Source: Alphaproteobacteria bacterium
GTDB lineage: Bacteria; Pseudomonadota; Alphaproteobacteria; Micavibrionales; UBA2020
Length of the DNA stretch: 38,124 bases
NCBI GenBank assembly: GCA_030682495.1
Contig: JAUXOC010000069.1
Span: 1-38,124, forward strand
Reading direction: 5' to 3'
The position numbers were made by a program, and so were the translations under genes. Each line of letters begins with the position of its first letter. Positions within the stretch are counted from its first letter, which is position 1. Positions 26,536 through 38,124 of the stretch are shown here, piece after piece. The notes below the pieces were generated by a model. The model saw nothing but the letters and a program-made list of their open reading frames with translations. It was not told the DNA's origin and ran no database searches.

Positions 26536-26564
26536 TTTTAAACGGTTATGCATAAAAAATGCAA
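26536..26564 (-). promoter_or_regulatory. Likely promoter for the DUF6356 gene
   Basis: Minus strand: TTGCAT (26559-26564), a 17-bp spacer, TTAAAA (26536-26541). It lies about 45 bp upstream of the ATG in the 200-bp divergent gap shared with the alpha-2-macroglobulin gene. Confidence 0.5.
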
Positions 26565-26690
26565 GAAAAAGGGAAGCGCCAAAACCGTACCGCCCGTTCC
26601 TCTAAATCGAGGGATTGCTCGCATCTTTACAGCTTTTTCACTATGATCTGCGAGACTCACCCACCGATGTTTTTTAGCCGAGGTTTCCAC

Positions 26691-29600
26691 ATGCGGAATT
26701 TTTCTCTTGTTCTGATTGCTGCGTTTTTTGTTTTTGCCGCAGGGGCGGCGCAGGCGCAGGAGAGCGGGGTATCGCAACCTCTCGAAATCACGCGCATCAC
26801 GCCGGAGGGGGCGGATGTGCCTGCCGGACGGCAGATCGTCATCACCTTCAACCGCGCCGTGGTACCGCTCGGGCGGATGGAGCGCAGCGCCGAAGAAATC
26901 CCCGTGAGCATCACACCCGCGCTGGACTGCGAATGGCGCTGGATCAACCCGTCGTCGCTGGCGTGCCAATTGGGCGAGCAAACAGCGATGAAGCAATCGA
27001 CGGCCTATAAACTGACGGTCAATCCCGGCATCACGGCGGAAGATGCCGCTACGATTGCCGCACCTTTTGAGCACAGCTTCATCACCCAGCGCGCCGATGT
27101 GCGCCATAGCTGGTTCCAGACCTGGCGCTCACCCGCAACGCCGGTCATTCGCGTGACGTTCAACCAGCCGGTGACGCTGAAATCCGCTGAGAAAGCCCTT
27201 TCTTTTGAGGCTGGCGGCAAGAACACGAAAATCAAGCTCAGCGTGCCCGAATATGCGCATGATCCGATCGAGAAAAACGGCGTAATCTATCACCGTGTTT
27301 TGATCGCAGAGCCTGCAAAAGAATTGCCGCTGGATACCAGCGTAACGCTGAAGCTTTCGGCAGGGCTGATCTCGTCCGAAGGCGATGCGCCTGCGATTGC
27401 CGCGCGTGATGTAACCGTCTTTGATACCTTTCCGGCTTTCTCTTTTGTGGGGCTGCGCTGCAGCGACAATAGCGATGCCGAAATCAATATCGCCCCCGGT
27501 CAAAAAAGCGATGCGAAATGTAACCCGATGGCGCCCGTGGCACTGCGTTTTTCCGTGCCGGTCATGCGCGGTCAGGTCAAACAGCACGTGACGTTTAACC
27601 CTGCATTCGGTGCGGCAGCGGCGGCGGATGACGTCTGGGGCGATCTGTCAGACGAATATTCACGCCTTGGTCGTGCGCATCAAAAAGGCCAGACATACGA
27701 TGTCTTTTTGCCGCAAGGGCTGAAGGCTGTGCAGGTTTATACCGTCAGTCTTGGCGAGATCAAGCGCGGTTTCTGGGCGCGTATCGGCGCATGGTTCCGC
27801 AGCCTGTTTGGCAAAACCGCGCCCGCAACCGCGCTACAAGACGAATTTGGCCGCGCCCTGCCGCAAGGCTTCATGACGGCGTTTGCGACGGATAACCGCC
27901 GCCCGAATTTCGAGCTGATCCACAATACCGCCGTGCTGGAGCGGCAGACCGACAGCGACGTGCCGCTCTATGTCACCAATTTGCAAAAAACCATTTTCAA
28001 TTTCCGCGGTGTGACGTCGGCGGGCATGAAAGACGGACAAAAGCATGAAACCGCGCTGCCCGATGTACGCAATATCCAATACGCCATCCCCTTCGGCGTA
28101 CGCGAAGCTTTGGGCGGCAAAAGCGGTGCGGTTTTCGGCCATCTGTCAACCGAGCCGGACGTACCCAACAAGTCGCCCTATGAGCGCAAACTTTTTGCAC
28201 AGGTCACGCCCTGGCAGGTGCATGTCAAAATCGGACATTTCTCGTCTCTCGTCTGGGTGACGGATATGGCGAGCGGCGCGCCGGTTGAAGGTGCAAAGGT
28301 CACCTTTTACCGTGACGCCCTGTCATCGATGAGCGTGCCGACAAATGACAACACGCTGGCGAACGCCCGCACTGACGCGCGCGGTCTGGCAAGGCTTTCG
28401 GGCACCGAAACCATCGACCCGATGCTGGAGCTGGCGCGCGGCTATGGCGATGATACGCCGCGCGTTTTTGTGCGCGTGGACAAGGGCGAAGATATGGCGC
28501 TACTGCCTGCGGCATGGGAATTTGGCATTGATATCTGGCGCGCGTCGAACGAAAGCATCTATGCCGAAAGCCGCCGTAAATTTGGACATATCCGCGCCTG
28601 GGGCGCAACCGCGCAGGGCATTTACCGCGCGGGCGATACTATCGATTATAAAATCTATGTCCGAAACGAAAATGACCGCACGCTGGAGCCCGCGCCGCGT
28701 ACCGGATACAAACTGGAAATCGTCGATCCGATGGACAATGTGGTATCTACCACCGAAGACGTCAGGCTCAATAATTTTGGCAGCTTCGCGGGGCAGTATA
28801 CCGTGGCCGCAAACGCACCGGTGGGCTGGTATAAATTCCGCCTCAGCGGTGAATTTTCGCCTGAACAGAAAAGTCTCAACGAATATCAACGCGGCCATTA
28901 CACATGGACGCCGATCAATGTGCTGGTCAGCGATTTCACGCCTGCGCCTTTCCGCGCGGCGACATCGCTGAACGGCGATCTTTTTGCGGATGGTCAGGAC
29001 GTGACAGTGCAAAGCACGGCGCGTCTGCACTCCGGCGGACCCTATACGGATGCGAATGCCCGCGTGACCGCGATGCTGGAGCCGCGGGGCTTTACGCCCA
29101 AAAACCCCGCCACGGCCGGTTTTTACTTCGCCGCCAGTGAAGACGAACAGGCGCGACAGCTGTATCAGACAACCGCGCCGCTGAATGCACAGGGCGATCT
29201 TGAATCTGTCTTTAAAATCGAGGCAAACAATGTCGTTTATGGCCGCCTGACGGTGGAAACCGCCGTGCAGGATGACCGCGGCAAATATATCGCTTCTCAG
29301 GCGCAGGCGGATTTTGTCGGGCGTGACCGTTTTGTCGGTGTGCGCGGCACCCAATGGGTCTATAACGCGAAGACGGAAGCAAAGATCGAATACATCGTCG
29401 CCGATCCGCGCGGCGACATCACCGAAGGCGTACCCGTCAAGGTACAGATCGAAAAACAGGTAACTAAATCCGCGAAAGTCAAAGGCGCAGGCAATGCCTA
29501 TCTGACGCAGTATAGCGTCGAGTGGGAAGTCGCCGCCGCCTGCGAAGGTGTTTCGGCCAAGGGGGCAGAAACCTGTGCTTTCACGCCGGACAGTGCCGGA

Positions 29601-32570
29601 TATTACCGCGCCATCGCCACCATCGAGGATACACAAAAACGTGCGCATAGCAGCACGCAATACCTGTGGGTGGCAGGGCGTGACTATGTGATGTGGCATA
29701 ATGAAAGCGATGTGCTGCTGCCCATCGTGCCGGAAAAAGCCGAATATAACGTCGGCGATACCGCGCGCTATCTGGTGAAAAATCCCTGGCCGGGCGCAGA
29801 GGCTCTGGTGACGGTGGAACGCTACGGCGTCATCGACAGCTTTACCATGAAACTGGAAGGCAGCACGCCGGTCATCGAAATTCCCGTCAAGCCGGATTAC
29901 CTGCCGGGCTTTTATCTGTCTATCGTCGTGACCTCGCCGCGCGCGGCAGAGGCGCCGATTGAAGGCGGCGTTGATCTGGGTAAACCGTCTTTCCGCATGG
30001 GCTATGTCACTGTGCCGGTCAAAGATCCACATAAACAAATGGTGGTCAGCATCAAAACCGATGCCGAAGTCTATCGTCCGCGCGACAAGGTGACGGTGAC
30101 GCTCAACGCCCAGCCGAAACACCCGGAGGGGCGCGAGCCGGTGGAAATCGCCGTGGCGGTGCTGGACGAAGCGGTGTTCGATCTGATTGCAGGCGGTGCG
30201 AAAGCCTATGACCCCTATAGCGGTTTTTACAAACTTGAAGGCCTCGACCTTAAAAACTACAACCTGCTGACGCGCCTGATCGGCCGCCAGAAGTTCGAGA
30301 AAAAAGGCGCCAATCCGGGCGGCGATGGCGGGTCTGATTTCGCCATGCGCGATTTGTTTAAATTCGTCGCCTATTGGAATCCTGCCCTGCATGCCGACAG
30401 CAATGGCAATGCCAGCTTTACGTTTGATCTGCCGGATAATCTGACAGGCTGGCGTGTGCTGGCCATGGCGGTGACGCCAACGGATCGCCTCGGCTTGGGG
30501 CAGGGGACATTCAAGGTCAACCGCCCGACCGAGGTGCGCCCTGTCATGCCCAATCAGGTGACGGAGCGCGACAGCTTCAAGGCCGGATTCAGCGTGATGA
30601 ACCGCACGGACAAAGCGCGCACGCTTGATGTGAATATCTCCGTCGAGGGGCCGGTCGATACGGCGCAAACTCCCGCCAAAATAACGCAGCAGGTAACGCT
30701 GGAGCCTTATAAACGCACCACAGTTTATATGCCCGTGCAAACGGCGGCCTTGCCGGAGACATCGGCGCAGGAGAAGGGCGAGCTGGTCTTTACCATCCGC
30801 GCGCAAGATGCGCTGGATGCAGACGGCATGGTGCACCGCATGCCGGTCGGCAAGATGCGGTCGCTTGAAACTGCCGCCAGCTATGGCACGACAACCGGAG
30901 ACAAGGCCAGCGAAAGCATTCTTTTCCCCGAAGGCATCTATCCCGATGTCGGCGGCGTGAGCGTGGTGCTGGCACCCAGCGTCATTGCCCCGGTCGAGGG
31001 CGCGTTCAAATACATGCGCGATTACCCCTATCTGTGCTGGGAGCAAATCCTCAGCAAGGGTGTCATGGCAGCGCATTACCTGAACCTCAAATCCTATATG
31101 CCCGACAGCCTGACATGGGAGGGCAGTGATAAACTGCCGCAAACGACGCTCGACAGTGCGGCATCGTTTCAGGCGCCGAATGGCGGTATGAGCTATTTCA
31201 TCGCGCGCGATGAATATGTCAGCCCCTATCTCAGCGCCTATACCGCGCTGGCTTTTAACTGGATGCGCGCATCCGGCCACAAAGTGCCCGAAGCGGTCGA
31301 GAAGAAACTGCACGGTTACCTGCAAAATTTCCTGCGCAATGATACGGCGCCGGGGTTTTATACCGAAGGCATGAGATCGACCGTCCGCGCCGTGGCGCTG
31401 GCGGCACTATCCGCGCATGAAAAGGTGACGCTGGACGATATGCAGCGCTATCGCCCGCATGTGAAGGGGATGAGTTTGTTCGGTAAGGCACATTACATGC
31501 GTGCCGCGCTGAATTTCAAAGAAGGCGGCGATCTGGCGGCAGAAACAGCGAAAGATATTCTGTCCTATGCCAACCAGACCGGCGGAAAATTCATGTTCAG
31601 CGAGGAACTGGATGATAGCTATCGCCGCATTCTGGCCACGCCGCTGCGCGATAACTGCGCGATCCTTGATGCCTTTACGGTTTATGCCGGACGCGAAGAG
31701 GGGCATAAGCTGGCCGGCGATATGCCGTTCAAGCTTGTGCGCACCATCACCCAGACCCGTAAAAACCGCGACCATTGGGAGAACACACAGGAAAACATGT
31801 TCTGCATGAATGCCCTGACGTCCTATAGTCGCGTCTACGAAAAAGATCCGGTAGCGATGGAGGTGACAGCGAAGCTCGATGGTGCCACTTTTGGCGCAGC
31901 GGCTTTCACCGACCTGCGTGATGCGCCGGTAACGCTGGCGCGCGGTATGCAGGGCGATGACGCGGGCCACAAAACAACGCTGGATATTGAACGCAGCGGT
32001 AGCGGGCGGCTTTATTATGCCGCGCGTTTGCAATATGCGCCGAAATCGGATTTCAGCAAACCTGTCAATTCCGGCATCGAAATCCGCCGCGAATACAGCG
32101 TGGAGCGGGACGGTGCATGGCAACTGCTGAAACCCGAAGACAGCGTCAAACGCGGCGAGATTGTACGGGCGGATATTTACCTGTCGCTGCCTGCGGCGCG
32201 TAATTTCGTGGTCGTCGACGATCCGCTGCCGGGCGGGCTTGAATCCGTCAACCGCGATCTGGCGACGGCTTCGACTGTCGATGCGGCCAAGGGCGAACAG
32301 CCCATGGCAGGCGGCGCGTGGTGGTTCAAATTCCGCGATTGGGTATCGTACGGCGTATCCCGCTGGAGTTTCTATCACAAAGAACTCCGCCATGACCGCG
32401 CGGTATTCTATTCCGACTATCTGCCCGCCGGTAACTATCATCTGAGCTATACCGCGCAGGCGATTGCGGAGGGGGCTTTTGTGCATATGCCGGTGCATGC
32501 CGAAGAAATGTACGACCCCGATGTCTACGGCAAAGGGGTAAGGGGCAGGCTGGATGTGGCGGCGCCTTAA
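26691..32570 (+). CDS. Bacterial alpha-2-macroglobulin (thioester type)
   Basis: A 1959-aa periplasmic protease trap. The signal peptide MRNFSLVLIAAFFVFAAGAAQA is cleaved before QESG; there is no lipobox Cys, unlike E. coli YfhM. Macroglobulin-like beta domains make up the N-terminal half. The family core block appears at about 1215-1290 (AYWNPALHADSNGNASFTFDLPDNLTGWRVLAMAVT...). The thioester motif CWEQ is C1449-Q1452 within YPYLCWEQILSKG. The helical thioester domain follows and a C-terminal receptor-like beta domain ends the protein. CxEQ places it in the thioester-forming type, which covalently captures attacking proteases. ATG 26691 has CGAGG 8 nt upstream. It overlaps pbpC by 17 nt, the classic partner. 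It is about 300 residues longer than YfhM. Confidence 0.95.
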   Translation: MRNFSLVLIAAFFVFAAGAAQAQESGVSQPLEITRITPEGADVPAGRQIVITFNRAVVPLGRMERSAEEIPVSITPALDCEWRWINPSSLACQLGEQTAMKQSTAYKLTVNPGITAEDAATIAAPFEHSFITQRADVRHSWFQTWRSPATPVIRVTFNQPVTLKSAEKALSFEAGGKNTKIKLSVPEYAHDPIEKNGVIYHRVLIAEPAKELPLDTSVTLKLSAGLISSEGDAPAIAARDVTVFDTFPAFSFVGLRCSDNSDAEINIAPGQKSDAKCNPMAPVALRFSVPVMRGQVKQHVTFNPAFGAAAAADDVWGDLSDEYSRLGRAHQKGQTYDVFLPQGLKAVQVYTVSLGEIKRGFWARIGAWFRSLFGKTAPATALQDEFGRALPQGFMTAFATDNRRPNFELIHNTAVLERQTDSDVPLYVTNLQKTIFNFRGVTSAGMKDGQKHETALPDVRNIQYAIPFGVREALGGKSGAVFGHLSTEPDVPNKSPYERKLFAQVTPWQVHVKIGHFSSLVWVTDMASGAPVEGAKVTFYRDALSSMSVPTNDNTLANARTDARGLARLSGTETIDPMLELARGYGDDTPRVFVRVDKGEDMALLPAAWEFGIDIWRASNESIYAESRRKFGHIRAWGATAQGIYRAGDTIDYKIYVRNENDRTLEPAPRTGYKLEIVDPMDNVVSTTEDVRLNNFGSFAGQYTVAANAPVGWYKFRLSGEFSPEQKSLNEYQRGHYTWTPINVLVSDFTPAPFRAATSLNGDLFADGQDVTVQSTARLHSGGPYTDANARVTAMLEPRGFTPKNPATAGFYFAASEDEQARQLYQTTAPLNAQGDLESVFKIEANNVVYGRLTVETAVQDDRGKYIASQAQADFVGRDRFVGVRGTQWVYNAKTEAKIEYIVADPRGDITEGVPVKVQIEKQVTKSAKVKGAGNAYLTQYSVEWEVAAACEGVSAKGAETCAFTPDSAGYYRAIATIEDTQKRAHSSTQYLWVAGRDYVMWHNESDVLLPIVPEKAEYNVGDTARYLVKNPWPGAEALVTVERYGVIDSFTMKLEGSTPVIEIPVKPDYLPGFYLSIVVTSPRAAEAPIEGGVDLGKPSFRMGYVTVPVKDPHKQMVVSIKTDAEVYRPRDKVTVTLNAQPKHPEGREPVEIAVAVLDEAVFDLIAGGAKAYDPYSGFYKLEGLDLKNYNLLTRLIGRQKFEKKGANPGGDGGSDFAMRDLFKFVAYWNPALHADSNGNASFTFDLPDNLTGWRVLAMAVTPTDRLGLGQGTFKVNRPTEVRPVMPNQVTERDSFKAGFSVMNRTDKARTLDVNISVEGPVDTAQTPAKITQQVTLEPYKRTTVYMPVQTAALPETSAQEKGELVFTIRAQDALDADGMVHRMPVGKMRSLETAASYGTTTGDKASESILFPEGIYPDVGGVSVVLAPSVIAPVEGAFKYMRDYPYLCWEQILSKGVMAAHYLNLKSYMPDSLTWEGSDKLPQTTLDSAASFQAPNGGMSYFIARDEYVSPYLSAYTALAFNWMRASGHKVPEAVEKKLHGYLQNFLRNDTAPGFYTEGMRSTVRAVALAALSAHEKVTLDDMQRYRPHVKGMSLFGKAHYMRAALNFKEGGDLAAETAKDILSYANQTGGKFMFSEELDDSYRRILATPLRDNCAILDAFTVYAGREEGHKLAGDMPFKLVRTITQTRKNRDHWENTQENMFCMNALTSYSRVYEKDPVAMEVTAKLDGATFGAAAFTDLRDAPVTLARGMQGDDAGHKTTLDIERSGSGRLYYAARLQYAPKSDFSKPVNSGIEIRREYSVERDGAWQLLKPEDSVKRGEIVRADIYLSLPAARNFVVVDDPLPGGLESVNRDLATASTVDAAKGEQPMAGGAWWFKFRDWVSYGVSRWSFYHKELRHDRAVFYSDYLPAGNYHLSYTAQAIAEGAFVHMPVHAEEMYDPDVYGKGVRGRLDVAAP

Positions 32571-34743
32571 GTTCCTTAAATACGCGCTCGCCCTGCCGCT
32601 GCTGCTCGCGGCGGGGTTTGCGCTGGCCACGTTTCTGGCGCTAAACCCTGCCGAAGAAACATGGCGGCAAGCAGTGCGCGAAGCTGGCGTGCCGCGCGTG
32701 ACCGACCGCGGCGGCCAACCGCTCACGGCCAGTTATCATACTCGCTGGAACACCGCCGACCGCCGCGCCCTGCACGATATGCCGGATCTGCTGGTGCAGG
32801 CGTTTTTGCTCTCCGAAGACAAGCGCTTTTACACGCATGGCGGTATCGACTGGCGCGCACGAGGCAGCGCGCTTTGGCAAAACATGCGTGCGCGCGGCAC
32901 GGTGCGTGGTGCCAGCACCATCACCGAACAGGTCGTGCGCCAGCTGCACCCGCGCCCGCGCACACTCTGGTCGAAATGGGTCGAAGGCTTCGAGGCCGCA
33001 CGGCTGGAGCGGCATTTTAGCAAACCGCAAATTCTCGAATTTTACCTCAACCAAGTGCCCTATGCTTCGGGGCGGCGCGGGGTGGCGCAGGCGGCACGTT
33101 ACTATTTCAACCGCGATGTCGATACGCTGACGACCAAGGAAACGCTGGCGCTGGCCGTTCTGGTGCGCGCACCCAGCAGCTATGATCTTTACCGCGATCC
33201 GGCGCGGATTGATGGCGCTATTCTGCGTCTGGCGCGGCAGCTGCAGGCGGCGGGCACGCTGGATGACGCCGCCCTTGCACATCTCTTGGCGCAGGCGTTT
33301 GAACTGCAAAAACCGTCTTTGCCCGTCGATGCGGCGCATCTGGTGTCATATCTGCGCCGTCAGCCGGCGGCAGGCAGCGACGAAGACCTGCGCAGCACGA
33401 TTGATGCGGGGCTGCAGGCACGGGTGCAAAAAATCATCGATGACCGCATGCGCACGCTGAAGTCAAAAAATATTTATAATGCCGCCGCACTGGTGGCCGA
33501 TCATCAAACCGGCGAGGTTTTGGCTTGGGTCGTTGCAGGCGCGGGAAACGAACAGGCGCCTGGCGGGCAGATTGATGCCGTGACCGTGCCGCGCCAGCCG
33601 GGCTCTGCGCTCAAACCGTTTTTATATGCCGCCGCGCTTGATCGTGGCTGGACGGCCAGCACGATGATTGACGATAGCCCCTATGCGGGCGCTGTCGGCG
33701 CGGGGCTGCACCGTTTCCGCAATTACAGCAATACGTTTTACGGGCGCATGACGCTGCGCGAAGCGCTCGGTAATTCGCTGAACATTCCGGCGGTCAGAAC
33801 CATTCACCATGTCGGCGTCAAAAACTATCTGCAAACGCTGCACCGGCTGGGATTTCAGAGCCTCGGCCGCGCAGCGGAAATTTACGACGATGGTCTTGCG
33901 CTCGGCAATGGCGAGGTGACGCTGCTGGAACTGGTCTCCGGCTATGCGGCGCTGGCGGCGGGCGGCGTGCAAAACCCGCTGCATGTCATCATCGACGATC
34001 CGGCCCCGCGCGAACGGGACCGTATTTACAGCGAAGCCGCTGCAACGCTTGTCGGCAATATCCTGTCCGACCCGCATGCGCGGCGGCTTGAATTCGGCGC
34101 GGGCAGCGTGCTCAATTTTCCGCTTCAAACAGCGGTGAAAACCGGCACATCGACCGATTACCGCGATGCATGGGCGGTCGGCTATAACGACAGATATGTG
34201 GCAGGTATCTGGATGGGGAACCTCGACCACAAACCAACGGATGGCGTCACGGGTGGCACGGGGCCGGCACTGGCGCTCCGCAGTATTTTCAGCGAACTGA
34301 ACCGTGGCCGCGTGACGGAAAAACTCAAGATCAGCCCGCATCTGACCTTGCGCGATGTCTGCATCGAAGACAGCCGCGATCCTATGCGCTGCCATATGCG
34401 CAGCGAATGGTTTATGCCGCATGCCGCTGCGGAGGATGACAACGCCCCGCCGCACATCACGGCAAAGCCGCGTTTTGATATTGTGCAGCCGACCGAAGGT
34501 CTGCACATGGCCATCGACCCGCGCGTGCCGATGGATATGCAGCACTTCGCCTTTCGCCTGTCAGGGCTGGCTGCAGGGCAGGCAGTGGAATGGATTTTAA
34601 ATGGCGAGAGTCTGGGTGCGGCCTCGGCTTCGTCCTCGCACCTCTGGATGCTCCGGCGCGGGCAACATAAATTGCAGGCGCGTGTGGTGGCAGAAGGGGC
34701 GGAGATATATGCCTCGCCCGAAATCTCCTACATCGTCAAATAA
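32554..34743 (+). CDS. pbpC: Penicillin-binding protein 1C
   Basis: A 729-aa bifunctional peptidoglycan synthase, anchored by one N-terminal helix (8-30). Glycosyltransferase domain: SEDKRFYTHGGIDW (E88 catalytic), GASTITEQVVRQL, LEFYLNQVPYASGRRGVAQAA. Transpeptidase domain: active-site Ser in SALK (351-354), SLN (408-410) and KTGT (529-532). The C-terminal BiPBP_C beta domain ends the protein (about 640-729). PBP1C together with alpha-2-macroglobulin is thought to repair wall breaches while the trap blocks invading proteases. It starts inside the end of the macroglobulin gene at ATG 32554 with AGGGG upstream, so translation is coupled. All catalytic motifs are intact. Confidence 0.95.
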   Translation: MWRRLKFLKYALALPLLLAAGFALATFLALNPAEETWRQAVREAGVPRVTDRGGQPLTASYHTRWNTADRRALHDMPDLLVQAFLLSEDKRFYTHGGIDWRARGSALWQNMRARGTVRGASTITEQVVRQLHPRPRTLWSKWVEGFEAARLERHFSKPQILEFYLNQVPYASGRRGVAQAARYYFNRDVDTLTTKETLALAVLVRAPSSYDLYRDPARIDGAILRLARQLQAAGTLDDAALAHLLAQAFELQKPSLPVDAAHLVSYLRRQPAAGSDEDLRSTIDAGLQARVQKIIDDRMRTLKSKNIYNAAALVADHQTGEVLAWVVAGAGNEQAPGGQIDAVTVPRQPGSALKPFLYAAALDRGWTASTMIDDSPYAGAVGAGLHRFRNYSNTFYGRMTLREALGNSLNIPAVRTIHHVGVKNYLQTLHRLGFQSLGRAAEIYDDGLALGNGEVTLLELVSGYAALAAGGVQNPLHVIIDDPAPRERDRIYSEAAATLVGNILSDPHARRLEFGAGSVLNFPLQTAVKTGTSTDYRDAWAVGYNDRYVAGIWMGNLDHKPTDGVTGGTGPALALRSIFSELNRGRVTEKLKISPHLTLRDVCIEDSRDPMRCHMRSEWFMPHAAAEDDNAPPHITAKPRFDIVQPTEGLHMAIDPRVPMDMQHFAFRLSGLAAGQAVEWILNGESLGAASASSSHLWMLRRGQHKLQARVVAEGAEIYASPEISYIVK

Positions 34744-34762: not shown

Positions 34763-34790
34763 TTGCGAATCTGATTTAATCGGGTATTAA
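34763..34790 (+). promoter_or_regulatory. Probable promoter of the fusion-protein operon
   Basis: TTGCGA (34763-34768), a 16-bp spacer and TATTAA (34785-34790). The -10 lies inside the first operator copy, so a bound repressor would block it. The next ATG with a good ribosome site is at 34842. Confidence 0.5.
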
Positions 34791-34825
34791 ATACCCTCAT
34801 TGGGGTAAAAAATACCCGATTAAAT
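34774..34825. promoter_or_regulatory. Tandem operator in a 15-bp inverted repeat
   Basis: ATTTAATCGGGTATT (34774-34788) and AATACCCGATTAAAT (34811-34825) are perfect inverted arms. Inside are two copies of GGGTA-N5-TACCC at 34782-34796 and 34803-34817. Their centres are 21 bp apart, two helical turns, so both would face the same side of DNA. This is the layout expected for cooperative binding by a dimeric HTH repressor. The adjacent gene starts with such an HTH domain. Confidence 0.8.
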
Positions 34826-34841
34826 GAAACGGAGATTCGCC

Positions 34842-36329
34842 ATGTCCAAAACGCCCGTCGCTACCGAGCCTGAAAAATCTGCCATCGAAGCCTCTGCCCT
34901 GCGCGCATGGCGCAACCGTATGGGCTGGTCGCGCGACGAAGCGGCGGCGCAGCTGAACCTCAAGCGCGATACCTACAAGAAGCTGGAAAACGGCCAGCGC
35001 CCCATTACGGCGCGGCTGGCGGGCGAGATTGAACGGCTGGAAAAACTCGGTGCGGGGAGGGTGCAGCCGCCCGTGGCCGATACGCGCGCAGCCATTCATG
35101 TGGTGGGCGGCGGCACGATTGTGCATGTGCGCAACCATCTGGCACTGGCTGCGCCGGCTTATGGATCAACTGCGCGGGAAATTGCGGGTATTTGCACGCG
35201 GCTTGGCCAGAGCGCCCGTTTGACGCTGACCCGCATGGCAGATGTATCATCGCCCTACGAAACCAACGAAGATATGGCGCTACTGGCGGAAGAGATCGTG
35301 GCCAATCCGCATACCAAAATCGTCTTCTGGAATCCGGCGATCTGTGATTTTAAAGGCGAAATTGGCGATGTGGCTGCGGGACGCAAGGCGCAGCGTTTGA
35401 AAACCGCCGAGGGGCAGACGATGATGGCGCTGACACCGGCAGATAAAATCGTCTCCGGCATCCGGCGCGAGCGCAAGGATATTTTCCTCGTCGCCTTTAA
35501 AACCACCACAGGCGCGACGGAAGATGAAATGTATCTGGCGGGTCTGAAACTGATGAAAGGCGCGCATATCAACCTTGTGCTGGTCAACGATGTGGTCACG
35601 CGCATGAACATGGTCGTCTGCCCAGAAGAAGCGCGATACCATGTGACATCCGAACGTGTCGAAGCACTGGAAGGATTGGTCGATATGGCGCTGATGCGCG
35701 CCCGCGCGACCTTCACCCGTTCGACCGTCGTCGAAGGATCGGAAGGTGTGACGTGGACGTCGGATATGATTAGCGATAACTTGCGCGCCGTGGTCGAGCA
35801 TTGCATCACCCGCGGTGCCTATAAACCCGTTAAAACCCGCACCCGAGGCGAAGTGACGGCAGGGCATTTCGCGGTGCGCGGACCGGACGGAAAAATCATC
35901 ACATCGCGCCGCTGGTCGAATTTCAACCAGTTGAAACAAAACGGTATGGTCTTGATTGAACCCAAAGGCCGCGACCGCGTGATGGCCTATGGCGGCAAAC
36001 CTTCGGTGGGCGGGCAGAGCCAGCGGATTATTTTCGAAGATCATCCGGATCTGGACAATATCGTGCATTTCCATTGCCCGCTGAAACCGGATGCGCCGGA
36101 TAAAATTCCGCTGCGCGACCAGCGTCCGTACGAATGCGGCAGCCACGAATGCGGCAAAAACACATCCGACGGCCTGCGCGAAATTGAAGACGGTATCTGG
36201 GCGGTGATGCTCGACCAGCACGGGCCGAATATTGTGTATCGCAGCGATGTGCCAGCCGCGCGGGTGATTGATGTGATCGAACGCAATTTCGATCTGGACG
36301 ACAAAACCGGCGGACATGTGGACGGTTGA
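34842..36329 (+). CDS. XRE-HTH / CoaB-like / class II aldolase-like fusion protein
   Basis: A 495-aa protein that appears to join three domains. 17-68: Cro/CI-type HTH (LRAWRNRMGWSRDEAAAQLNLKRDTYKKLENGQ). About 84-285: a domain resembling phosphopantothenoylcysteine synthetase (DFP/CoaB), with VFWNPAICDFKGEIG, LTPADKIVSGIRRERKDIFLVAFKTTTGATEDEM and LVLVNDVV (N249, D250), positions that bind nucleotide in CoaB. About 308-485: a class II aldolase/adducin-like fold with IVHFHCP (H409, H411) and LDQHGP (H460) as the likely metal ligands. ATG 34842 has GGAG 8 nt upstream; the in-frame ATG 34824 lies within the operator. The next gene overlaps its stop by 1 nt. The HTH and aldolase calls are firm; the CoaB-like call is by motif and moderate. 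Confidence 0.75.
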   Translation: MSKTPVATEPEKSAIEASALRAWRNRMGWSRDEAAAQLNLKRDTYKKLENGQRPITARLAGEIERLEKLGAGRVQPPVADTRAAIHVVGGGTIVHVRNHLALAAPAYGSTAREIAGICTRLGQSARLTLTRMADVSSPYETNEDMALLAEEIVANPHTKIVFWNPAICDFKGEIGDVAAGRKAQRLKTAEGQTMMALTPADKIVSGIRRERKDIFLVAFKTTTGATEDEMYLAGLKLMKGAHINLVLVNDVVTRMNMVVCPEEARYHVTSERVEALEGLVDMALMRARATFTRSTVVEGSEGVTWTSDMISDNLRAVVEHCITRGAYKPVKTRTRGEVTAGHFAVRGPDGKIITSRRWSNFNQLKQNGMVLIEPKGRDRVMAYGGKPSVGGQSQRIIFEDHPDLDNIVHFHCPLKPDAPDKIPLRDQRPYECGSHECGKNTSDGLREIEDGIWAVMLDQHGPNIVYRSDVPAARVIDVIERNFDLDDKTGGHVDG

Positions 36330-36868
36330 TGATGACAGCGGTCTGGAAAAATCCTCTGCCCTTGCGTCTGGTTTTGTCGGATGACAGCGAGTCTTTTCGC
36401 GATATGCCGCCGGATGCCACGGCTTTGCCGCTGGCGCCGCATCCGGGGGCGTATGGCGTGCAGCGGCAAAATCATGTGCATGAGGGAGTTGATCTTTATT
36501 GCCCAGCCAGCACACCGGTGCAGGCGGTAGAAGCGGGGGAGGTTGTCGCCATCATCCCTTTTACCGGTGCACAGGCGGGGTCGGATTGGTGGGAAGATAC
36601 CGATGCTGTACTGGTCGAAGGCGATAGCGGCGTTGTGGTTTACGGCGAAATCGCACCTACCTGCCATCTGGGGCAACAGGTGGCCGCGGGCGATACGATT
36701 GGTCATGTCGTCACGGTTTTGAAAAAAGACAAAGGCCGCCCCATGGCGATGCTGCATCTTGAGCTGCACGCACAGGGCACACGCGATGCGCCCGAATGGC
36801 CGTCGCTTGAGGCCAAACCCGAAACCTTGCGCGACCCCACGCCCTATTTGCGAGGACTGGCAGAGTGA
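36329..36868 (+). CDS. M23-fold protein, catalytic His replaced
   Basis: A 179-aa protein of the M23 (LytM/peptidase) fold. The first zinc motif is present (HVHEGVDLYCP, HxxxD), followed by the beta-hairpin TPVQAVEAGEVVAI. The second motif, normally HxH, reads MLHLELH, so the second His, a zinc ligand, is kept, but the first, catalytic one is Met. Zinc may bind without peptidase activity, as in LytM-domain regulators. There is no signal peptide, which is unusual for a wall-binding protein, so it may work in the cytoplasm or on another substrate. It overlaps the fusion gene by 1 nt (TGATG) and the next gene by 4 nt, so it is clearly co-transcribed with them. Confidence 0.72.
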   Translation: MMTAVWKNPLPLRLVLSDDSESFRDMPPDATALPLAPHPGAYGVQRQNHVHEGVDLYCPASTPVQAVEAGEVVAIIPFTGAQAGSDWWEDTDAVLVEGDSGVVVYGEIAPTCHLGQQVAAGDTIGHVVTVLKKDKGRPMAMLHLELHAQGTRDAPEWPSLEAKPETLRDPTPYLRGLAE

Positions 36869-37218
36869 AGCAGCGCGCTTTTATCAAAGCCGGCGATGTG
36901 ATTATCCCCATCGCCGCCGTAGAGCGGGTGGATATCGCACGCATCGAACAGGACGGCACGGTCGATATTGTGCATAGCGGCGGACAGCGCATGACCGCGC
37001 GTGATTTTGATGCCTTCGAGGCCGTGATGCTGTTGCACCCTGCCGCACTGGAGGGACGGCGGCTGCGCTGGGTGAAAAACGCCTGGGCGTTTCACAATCT
37101 GGTCGCGCATCCGCTGATGCAGGTGATGGTCTGGCTCGGCTTCAAACGCGCCGCCATCCGTCTGCACGACATGACCGTGCCCAAACCACTGGGGCTGCGG
37201 GTATCCAGACCCTCCTGA
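36865..37218 (+). CDS. Small conserved-looking protein of unknown function
   Basis: A 117-aa protein starting at GTG 36865, overlapping the previous stop (GTGA). The first half looks beta-rich and soluble (RAFIKAGDVIIPIAAVERVDIARIEQDGTVDIVHSG). The second half has a compact WAFHNLVAHPLMQVMVWLGFKRAAIRLHDMTVPKPLG block, with an amphipathic or membrane-touching helix (LVAHPLMQVMVWLGF) and ordered His/Asp residues. The FHNLVAHPL type of motif occurs in small uncharacterised phage and bacterial proteins, but I cannot name a family. Last gene of the three-gene operon. Confidence 0.65.
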   Translation: MKQRAFIKAGDVIIPIAAVERVDIARIEQDGTVDIVHSGGQRMTARDFDAFEAVMLLHPAALEGRRLRWVKNAWAFHNLVAHPLMQVMVWLGFKRAAIRLHDMTVPKPLGLRVSRPS

Positions 37219-37296: not shown

Positions 37297-37452
37297 GTCC
37301 TGAGATTTCAGGGACTTATTTGTGCGCCGCAATATAAAAACGATTGCGGTGGCAGAGCGAAGCCCGAGCAGGCCGGAGGCCTGCGACGACGGTTCGCTCT
37401 AAAAATATAAGCTTCTGGAGCATTCACGTCGATCGATTGAAGAGTGATGCTC
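37297..37452 (+). promoter_or_regulatory. Structured leader ahead of the GTP cyclohydrolase II-like gene
   Basis: The 258-bp gap holds several hairpins. GTCCTGA with TCAGGGAC at 37297-37314 may end the previous operon. A two-level structure has outer arms AGAGCGAA (37354-37361) and TTCGCTCT (37393-37400) and an inner perfect stem GCAGGCC (37368-37374)/GGCCTGC (37378-37384). A third stem pairs GAGCAT...CAC with GTGATGCTC (37418-37452). No T-run follows, so this is not a simple terminator. The FMN riboswitch consensus is not present. Possibly an unknown leader RNA. Confidence 0.5.
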
Positions 37453-37476: not shown

Positions 37477-38124
37477 ATGAAAAAGAACCGTCCGAATTCG
37501 TCGTCGCATATCATCCTGACCTCGCACCCGCCCAAAGACAGCAAGGTGCCGAAAGTCAATTGGGGTGCGCAAACGCTGGAAGAACGCGGGCCGCTGATCG
37601 CCAGCATGGCCGACCATGCGGCATCGAATGTGATTGGCGCTTATTCTGGTGCGTATTCTGTTTACCGTGCCATGGCGGTGGCCATCGGCGTGCTCGACCC
37701 GCTGCATGTGCCGGACCTGACCAATACCTCGCCCGCGGAAAAAATCGGCCCGCATCCGCAATGGATGGATCCCGGTAAAATCGTCAGTCTTGACCCCTGG
37801 GGCCATATGGTCGGTGAGGCCTTTGACGATGTGCGCAAAAAAGGCCTCGATGTACGCCCGACGATTGCCGTGACCAAGGCGCATATCAATATGCCCGAGA
37901 TCAAGGATGCGATTGCTGCCGGACGCCTGAAGCCGGATGGCGATGTCCTGAAAGCGAATGGCGATGTGAAAGTCACCAAGGCTGCCATCGACCCCGTCTG
38001 GTATCTGCCCGGCATTGCCAAGCGTTTCGAGATCGAGGAAACCGACTTGCGCCGCGCGCTTTTCGAATATTCGGGCGGCATGTTCCCCGAACTGATTACG
38101 CGCAGCGACCTGAAAGTCTTGCTG
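37477..38124 (+). CDS. GTP cyclohydrolase II-like protein (N-terminal part)
   Basis: The first 216 codons of a gene that runs off the window. It matches the alphaproteobacterial RibA-like protein with an N-terminal GTP_CH_N domain: ILTSHPPKDSK, NWGAQTLEERGPLIAS, HAASNVIGAYSGAYSVYRAMAVA, DLTNTSPAEKIGPHPQWMDPGKIVSLDPWGHMVGEAF, RPTIAVTKAHINMPEIKDAI. This family contains the fungal Urc1 relatives of uracil catabolism, and it may not make riboflavin. The catalytic zinc-binding Cys cluster and GTP site would be beyond the window end, so activity cannot be judged. The start at ATG 37477 is weakly supported (AGAAAGA upstream). Confidence 0.85.
   Translation, partial: MKKNRPNSSSHIILTSHPPKDSKVPKVNWGAQTLEERGPLIASMADHAASNVIGAYSGAYSVYRAMAVAIGVLDPLHVPDLTNTSPAEKIGPHPQWMDPGKIVSLDPWGHMVGEAFDDVRKKGLDVRPTIAVTKAHINMPEIKDAIAAGRLKPDGDVLKANGDVKVTKAAIDPVWYLPGIAKRFEIEETDLRRALFEYSGGMFPELITRSDLKVLL

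Follow-up and report, generated by a model that had tools for sequence, protein, structure and literature searches.

The window, i.e., the whole stretch of 38,124 nt that was analyzed (contig JAUXOC010000069.1 of an Alphaproteobacteria bacterium, assembly GCA_030682495.1), carries near its 3' end a three-gene operon whose first gene encodes a protein with an HTH domain, a CoaB-like domain and a class II aldolase-like domain. The features of this locus are as follows.

34774 to 34825, no strand: composite inverted repeat enclosing both operator-like palindromes, with 23-nt arms (34774-34796 and 34803-34825) that are 87% complementary
34782 to 34796, no strand: operator-like palindrome 1, GGGTATTAAATACCC, a perfect palindrome
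34803 to 34817, no strand: operator-like palindrome 2, GGGTAAAAAATACCC, 21 nt from site 1
34831 to 34834, plus strand: likely ribosome binding site GGAG for the ATG at 34842, as read from the sequence
34842 to 36329, plus strand: HTH, CoaB-like and class II aldolase-like fusion protein (Pfam, PHROG, structure model, profile match)
34887 to 35057, plus strand: HTH domain of Cro/CI type, residues 22-78 (PF01381 and PF13560 above cutoffs)
35085 to 35723, plus strand: CoaB-like domain, residues 88-300 (match to PDB 2gk4 by structure and by HMM)
35751 to 36308, plus strand: class II aldolase-like metal domain, residues 310-495, with H415, H417 and H466 (PF00596, FucA fold)
36329 to 36868, plus strand: M23-like protein (PF01551) with an atypical metal site (HxGxDxY, YGE, MLH), from residue conservation in 66 relatives
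36865 to 37218, plus strand: small protein matching phrog_36447, with the motif HNLVxHPLMQ...HD.TVP.P
37298 to 37313, plus strand: terminator-like hairpin after the third gene, a consensus match only

The fusion gene is covered by one open frame (34824-36329, plus strand), from whose first position the residues of the fusion protein are numbered here, and the ATG at 34842 (residue 7) is the likelier start, with the GGAG sitting 7 nt upstream. The stop codon of the fusion gene overlaps the start codon of the M23-like gene (TGATG, 36327-36331) and the stop codon of the latter overlaps the start of the small gene (GTGA, 36865-36868). Upstream of the operon, positions 26559-34743 carry a large alpha-2-macroglobulin-like gene followed by a gene for a PbpC-type penicillin-binding protein, an ordinary pairing that places the locus in the chromosome. 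Beyond the terminator-like hairpin, positions 37477-38124 encode a URC1-like GTP cyclohydrolase II homologue.

The original prediction that HTH, CoaB-like and class II aldolase-like domains are joined in one polypeptide was borne out by Pfam, by profile comparison and by a structure model. HTH_3 (PF01381) matched residues 26-71 (E 1.9e-7, 31.4 bits against a Pfam cutoff of 23) and Aldolase_II (PF00596) matched residues 343-419 (E 1.9e-6, 28.3 bits against a cutoff of 22.2). Pfam DFP did not match the fusion protein when this was searched alone, and the NCBIfam CoaBC/CoaB matches were weak (E 3e-4), with TIGR00521 scoring 19.8 bits against a cutoff of 219.7. The CoaB-like part was matched by phrog_35624 (E 7e-35), and a profile of 76 family members matched Streptococcus pneumoniae CoaB (2gk4) with an E of 9e-14. 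An AlphaFold2 model of the fusion protein, built from the 76-member alignment, had a mean pLDDT of 91.7, and both enzyme folds were recovered when it was compared with known structures; residues 88-294 aligned with CoaB 2gk4 (VIA-align, Z 22.1, rmsd 2.2, 190 residues aligned) and residues 312-490 with Escherichia coli FucA 1dzz (VIA-align, Z 13.8, rmsd 3.1, 156 residues aligned), and matches were also found to a second CoaB structure, 1u7z (Z 19.7), and to pyruvic oxime dioxygenase (Z 12.4). A Foldseek search of the BFVD viral models gave matches mostly to the HTH. The three-domain protein is kept in related genomes at 75-89% identity, with a mean identity of 80% in the HTH domain. Moreover, Ka/Ks against the related locus L007 was ~0.06-0.08 in all three domains of the fusion protein and ~0.15 in the M23-like and small genes, so that all of these are under purifying selection.

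Approximately 40 residues are invariant across phage and bacterial copies of the family, including D175, K208, N255-D256, H415, H417 and H466. In CoaB, Asn210 is a neighbouring active-site residue with a role in acid binding. The KxKK loop and a cation-binding Asp of CoaB keep the triphosphate of CTP in place, and Arg206 functions in the cysteine step (PMC7794376, where M. smegmatis CoaB numbering is used, i.e., R207 and D281). With CoaB (PF04127, TIGR00521), the fusion protein shares the fold, the GGT nucleotide loop, the FK and ND motifs and the metal-binding Asp (D279 in E. coli, D281 in M. smegmatis), which is the invariant D175 here. Unlike CoaB, the fusion protein has L106 and A110 at the positions of Arg206 and Asn210 (R-x-x-x-N-x-S) when aligned with 2gk4 and true CoaBs, and R191-L-(K/S)-(T/S) in place of the KxKK loop, the first Lys being replaced by the invariant R191; both replacements are placed by sequence register, not by superposition. 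True phage CoaBs likewise diverge from KxKK after the first Lys. A further difference from CoaB is the partner domain, which is aldolase-like here and not CoaC.

The aldolase-like domain shares with class II aldolases such as FucA (PF00596) the fold and the metal-binding His triad (H415, H417 and H466, found in 76 of 76 sequences), and the HxH and HG ligands that had been read from the sequence correspond to H415/H417 and H466/G467, which are invariant in the 76 relatives. By comparison, the catalytic Glu73 of FucA is replaced by an invariant Gly396 according to two independent sequence alignments made without superposition, Asn29 of FucA is replaced by an invariant His348 in the same kind of sequence register, and a CGSxxCG motif with invariant C438 and C443 is new in the fusion family. 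In AraD, an Asp is found at the place of FucA Glu73. Pyruvic oxime dioxygenase, an enzyme with a class II aldolase fold that catalyzes Fe(II) dioxygenation, also has no Glu73 at its sequence position (PMC11841055). Since the hallmark residues of CoaB (Arg206, Asn210, KxKK) and of FucA (Glu73) are replaced, neither of the two known reactions is expected; the assignments to CoaB and class II aldolase therefore hold as folds but not as reactions. A main role as a paralogue in the CoA pathway was rejected, because a full canonical CoaBC is encoded separately in the same genome and the pantothenate residues are gone; no CoaC flavoprotein other than CoaBC was found in this genome.

Close relatives (75-89% identity) were found in several alphaproteobacterial metagenome assemblies, including Micavibrio sp. 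UBA2020, which belongs to the same genus as the window. Among 142 surveyed genomes of the order, 12 contained a CoaB-like relative, with an intact HTH fusion in 8 and a CoaB-like gene without HTH in 3, and among 398 surveyed genomes of the phylum, a relative was present in the window's own genome only. The sequences compared come mostly from metagenome assemblies, and the functional statements made here are computational. When viral contigs were scanned with the window protein alone, no match was obtained, whereas scans with CoaB-like and aldolase-like alignments identified 125 loci. Together with annotated phages these form 83 non-redundant phage groups, with both domains in one frame in 76 of the 83, and many of the phage contigs carrying this fusion family are large (200-600 kb), e.g., LR756511, a 595-kb phage with the CoaB-like/aldolase-like fusion. 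Caulobacter Bertelyvirus and Pseudomonas Otagovirus carry the CoaB-like part alone. None of the phage copies has an HTH, which is restricted to chromosomal copies. In the tree, the bacterial copies form a single clade (100% SH-aLRT) that is nested within a clade holding 55 phage copies (98%), with more phage lineages outside. The double enzyme was thus apparently acquired from very large phages, and because the root of the tree is weakly supported, a direction of transfer from phage to bacterium is likely but not proven.

The window proteins match both phrog_35624 (CoaB-like) and phrog_36447 (small protein); unlike the bacterial fusion, the phage copies lack the HTH, and both PHROGs are labeled as being of unknown function. 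In the literature searched, where absence is not proof, no paper on the phage CoaB-like/aldolase-like fusion was found, nor any description of the HTH/CoaB-like/aldolase-like combination, the phage family, the altered active sites or the operator.

In each of the eight loci compared, two palindromes of the GGGTATT(A/T)AATACCC type immediately precede the gene; those in the window sit ~25-60 nt ahead of the start codon of the fusion. When up to one mismatch to the pattern GGGTATTNAATACCC was allowed, the window's own genome showed a single occurrence, at this place, and the exact pattern was found once each in 9 of the 142 genomes of the order. Eight of these are the full set of genomes whose HTH fusion is intact at its 5' end, and the ninth site lies in an unrelated context; the three genomes with the HTH-less CoaB-like gene do not contain the exact pattern. 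In 230 kb of related sequence, GGGTAN5TACCC was found at this operator alone. No consensus match to a sigma-70-type promoter was found upstream of the fusion gene. The HTH domain is likely to bind at this palindrome pair, a reading that suggests autoregulation, a likely role to which the co-occurrence of the palindromes with the intact HTH fusion points. While the upstream inverted repeat could instead act as an RNA hairpin, loci L003, L004 and L006 retain two separate palindromes and no single long stem. A regulatory role, as put forward in the original prediction, is strongly indicated on sequence grounds by the operator-like pair before the gene, and the enzyme probably controls its own production, with a predicted target site before its own genes and almost nowhere else.

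The proteins encoded by the two downstream genes both also belong to phage families. In the M23-like protein, the HxGxD motif and the final metal His are invariant, as in peptidase M23, so that the metal ligands are kept; unlike in peptidase M23, every relative with these columns aligned (63-65 of 66) has Met in place of the first His of HxH and Glu in place of the His of the middle motif (YGE), and the protein thus lacks the catalytic His residues of this peptidase family. The M23-like family was found at 57 viral loci, some with CoaB-like genes next door. However, of the 17 large phage records that contain an M23-like gene, all of which may be fragments, 11 showed no CoaB-like match; an obligatory partnership of the two in phages was therefore rejected, and their link is a recurrent one. 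The small protein was found at full length in 25 phage loci in a collection-wide scan, 23 of which carried the CoaB-like/aldolase-like fusion in the fetched stretch, a count that is biased upward since the alignment had been seeded with neighbours of the fusion. A structure model of the small protein (pLDDT 84.6, from 18 sequences) showed no PDB match below an E of 0.3.

Taken together, we consider it reasonably probable that this locus encodes a phage-derived bifunctional enzyme turned into its own repressor, with the HTH acting on the two palindromes and the operon at 34842-37218 being repressed. The fold, the conservation, the phage family and its nesting, the operator co-occurrence and the operon layout were computed; DNA binding, repression, catalysis and effector release are what we infer. 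The HTH domain would bind the two tandem palindromes within 34782-34817 and thereby repress all three genes. The CoaB-like domain would bind a nucleoside triphosphate and a metal ion and would probably activate a carboxylate as an acyl-nucleotide, presumably a carboxylate other than phosphopantothenate because the residues for the latter are gone, and the three-histidine metal site of the aldolase-like domain may act on a linked metabolite through a chemistry other than sugar-phosphate aldol cleavage. The active site of CoaB lies where the two subunits of its dimer meet, so that occupancy by substrate or nucleotide could alter the spacing of the two HTH domains. An altered spacing could release the operator, as in BirA-type enzyme-repressors, the trigger being a substrate, nucleotide or product that occupies the dimeric CoaB-like core. 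Self-regulating HTH-enzyme fusions are a known kind, and the protein described here resembles the BirA type in that one chain contains an HTH together with a ligase-type domain and in that its own genes are preceded by an operator, which in this case is predicted from sequence alone; unlike in BirA, the HTH and enzyme classes are different ones and the autoregulation is a predicted one.

The replaced hallmark residues of CoaB and FucA could also indicate that catalysis has given way to ligand binding, and the locus would then encode a pure metabolite-sensing repressor, in which catalytically silent CoaB-like and aldolase-like domains control the HTH through a bound ligand. This reading, which would also fit the clearly conserved HTH and operator, seems unlikely, since the same replacements are found in the HTH-less phage copies, where they would mark a different reaction and not a bacterial switch to sensing, and since the residues of the metal and nucleotide sites are invariant. 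An enzyme acting as the repressor of its own operon is most likely, because the putative catalytic residues are invariant and shared with phage copies without HTH; a pure sensor in phages would not need them. Of the two options initially proposed, enzymes regulating their own synthesis are thus a better fit than an effector-sensor role of the enzyme folds.

The phage origin, the patchy distribution (12 of 142 genomes), the apparently tight autoregulation and a weak similarity of the HTH to control proteins would also be consistent with a module for defence or superinfection exclusion that stems from phages and is governed by an HTH of the control-protein kind. This is rather improbable, as PADLOC gave no match for the enzyme parts beyond chance level, with weak matches at the HTH level only, and as the cassette loci sit among housekeeping genes. 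The fusion protein could also regulate neighbouring uracil-catabolism-like genes, i.e., the URC1-like gene at 37477 and the URC4 and UPRT genes of relatives; URC1-like, URC4-like or uracil phosphoribosyltransferase (UPRT) genes adjoin the operon in several related genomes (L003:8628-11912; L009:4017-4649), and a UPRT gene follows the HTH-less CoaB-like/M23-like pair in one further genome. The operator sites, however, are found before the fusion operon only, a terminator-like hairpin separates the operon from the URC1-like gene, and the linkage is seen in part of the genomes, with no URC genes near the cassette in G124, G002 and G125, all of which makes such a function decidedly improbable. Although the sequences are from metagenome assemblies, an assembly artefact or a phage contig binned into the genome is hardly credible, because genomes from different studies show the same cassette beside PbpC/alpha-2-macroglobulin genes, as in the window, or beside polA-type or flagellar ones.

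More tentatively, and with somewhat less than even confidence, very large phages may encode a hitherto undescribed CoaB-derived pathway for a small molecule or cofactor, which a lineage of alphaproteobacteria would have captured, brought together in one operon and placed under its own repressor by fusion of an HTH to its first enzyme. Such a pathway, which would make or remove this compound, could consist of the CoaB-like/aldolase-like fusion, the small partner and the M23-like metalloprotein, and variants of it would include CoaC or ArgC-like reductases. What comes to light through this locus is a large and unannotated family of enzymes in very large phages, in which a cofactor-biosynthesis fold is combined with changed active sites. 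The bacterial operon, whose predicted operator is a defined single site and whose three genes are tightly linked, provides a handle on this family, as both its regulation (a substrate releasing the enzyme from the operator) and its chemistry become testable. If true, this would be a clear case of a bacterium adopting a phage metabolic enzyme and adding its own switch.

Several further gene arrangements were observed. In short phage proteins of 50-77 residues (L198-L252), the small protein is represented by its HNxxxHP part alone, with no CoaB-like fusion nearby. Phage clusters with a true CoaB (PF04127), a CoaC (PF02441) and an M23-like gene were found in L288:4548-6525, L293:4637-6498, L263:4726-6585 and L285:4543-6468; in L288 and L293 the CoaC flavoprotein domain and the M23-like domain share one frame beside the true CoaB, and in two other phage proteins (L287:5410-6579 and L298:5491-6456) the M23-like domain is fused to unidentified N-terminal domains. 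L314:1504-2592 encodes a CoaB-like protein that is very divergent (PF04127, E 2.5e-16); WH and GHG motifs in its C-terminal part recall the aldolase-like domain, and Pfam shows no second domain. A few phage groups (L046, L051, L089, L125) have NAMPT/nicotinate phosphoribosyltransferase-like and PRPP synthetase genes in the neighbourhood of the fusion; a link to NAD salvage was rejected, since NAMPT and PRPP synthetase were near the fusion in 5 groups each, which are too few and lack a background rate for comparison. In one phage clade (L085, L087, L095, L098, L102, L108, L117, L120, L141 and L143), a gene for a CYTH-type protein and one for a DraG-type ADP-ribosylglycohydrolase come after the fusion in similar order, with the small gene in between in several. 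In two genomes of the order and one Variovorax megaplasmid (L159:8701-10423, L160:2007-3757 and L163:9959-11531), a standalone CoaB-like gene adjoins an ArgC-type (semialdehyde dehydrogenase) reductase, which replaces the aldolase-like domain.
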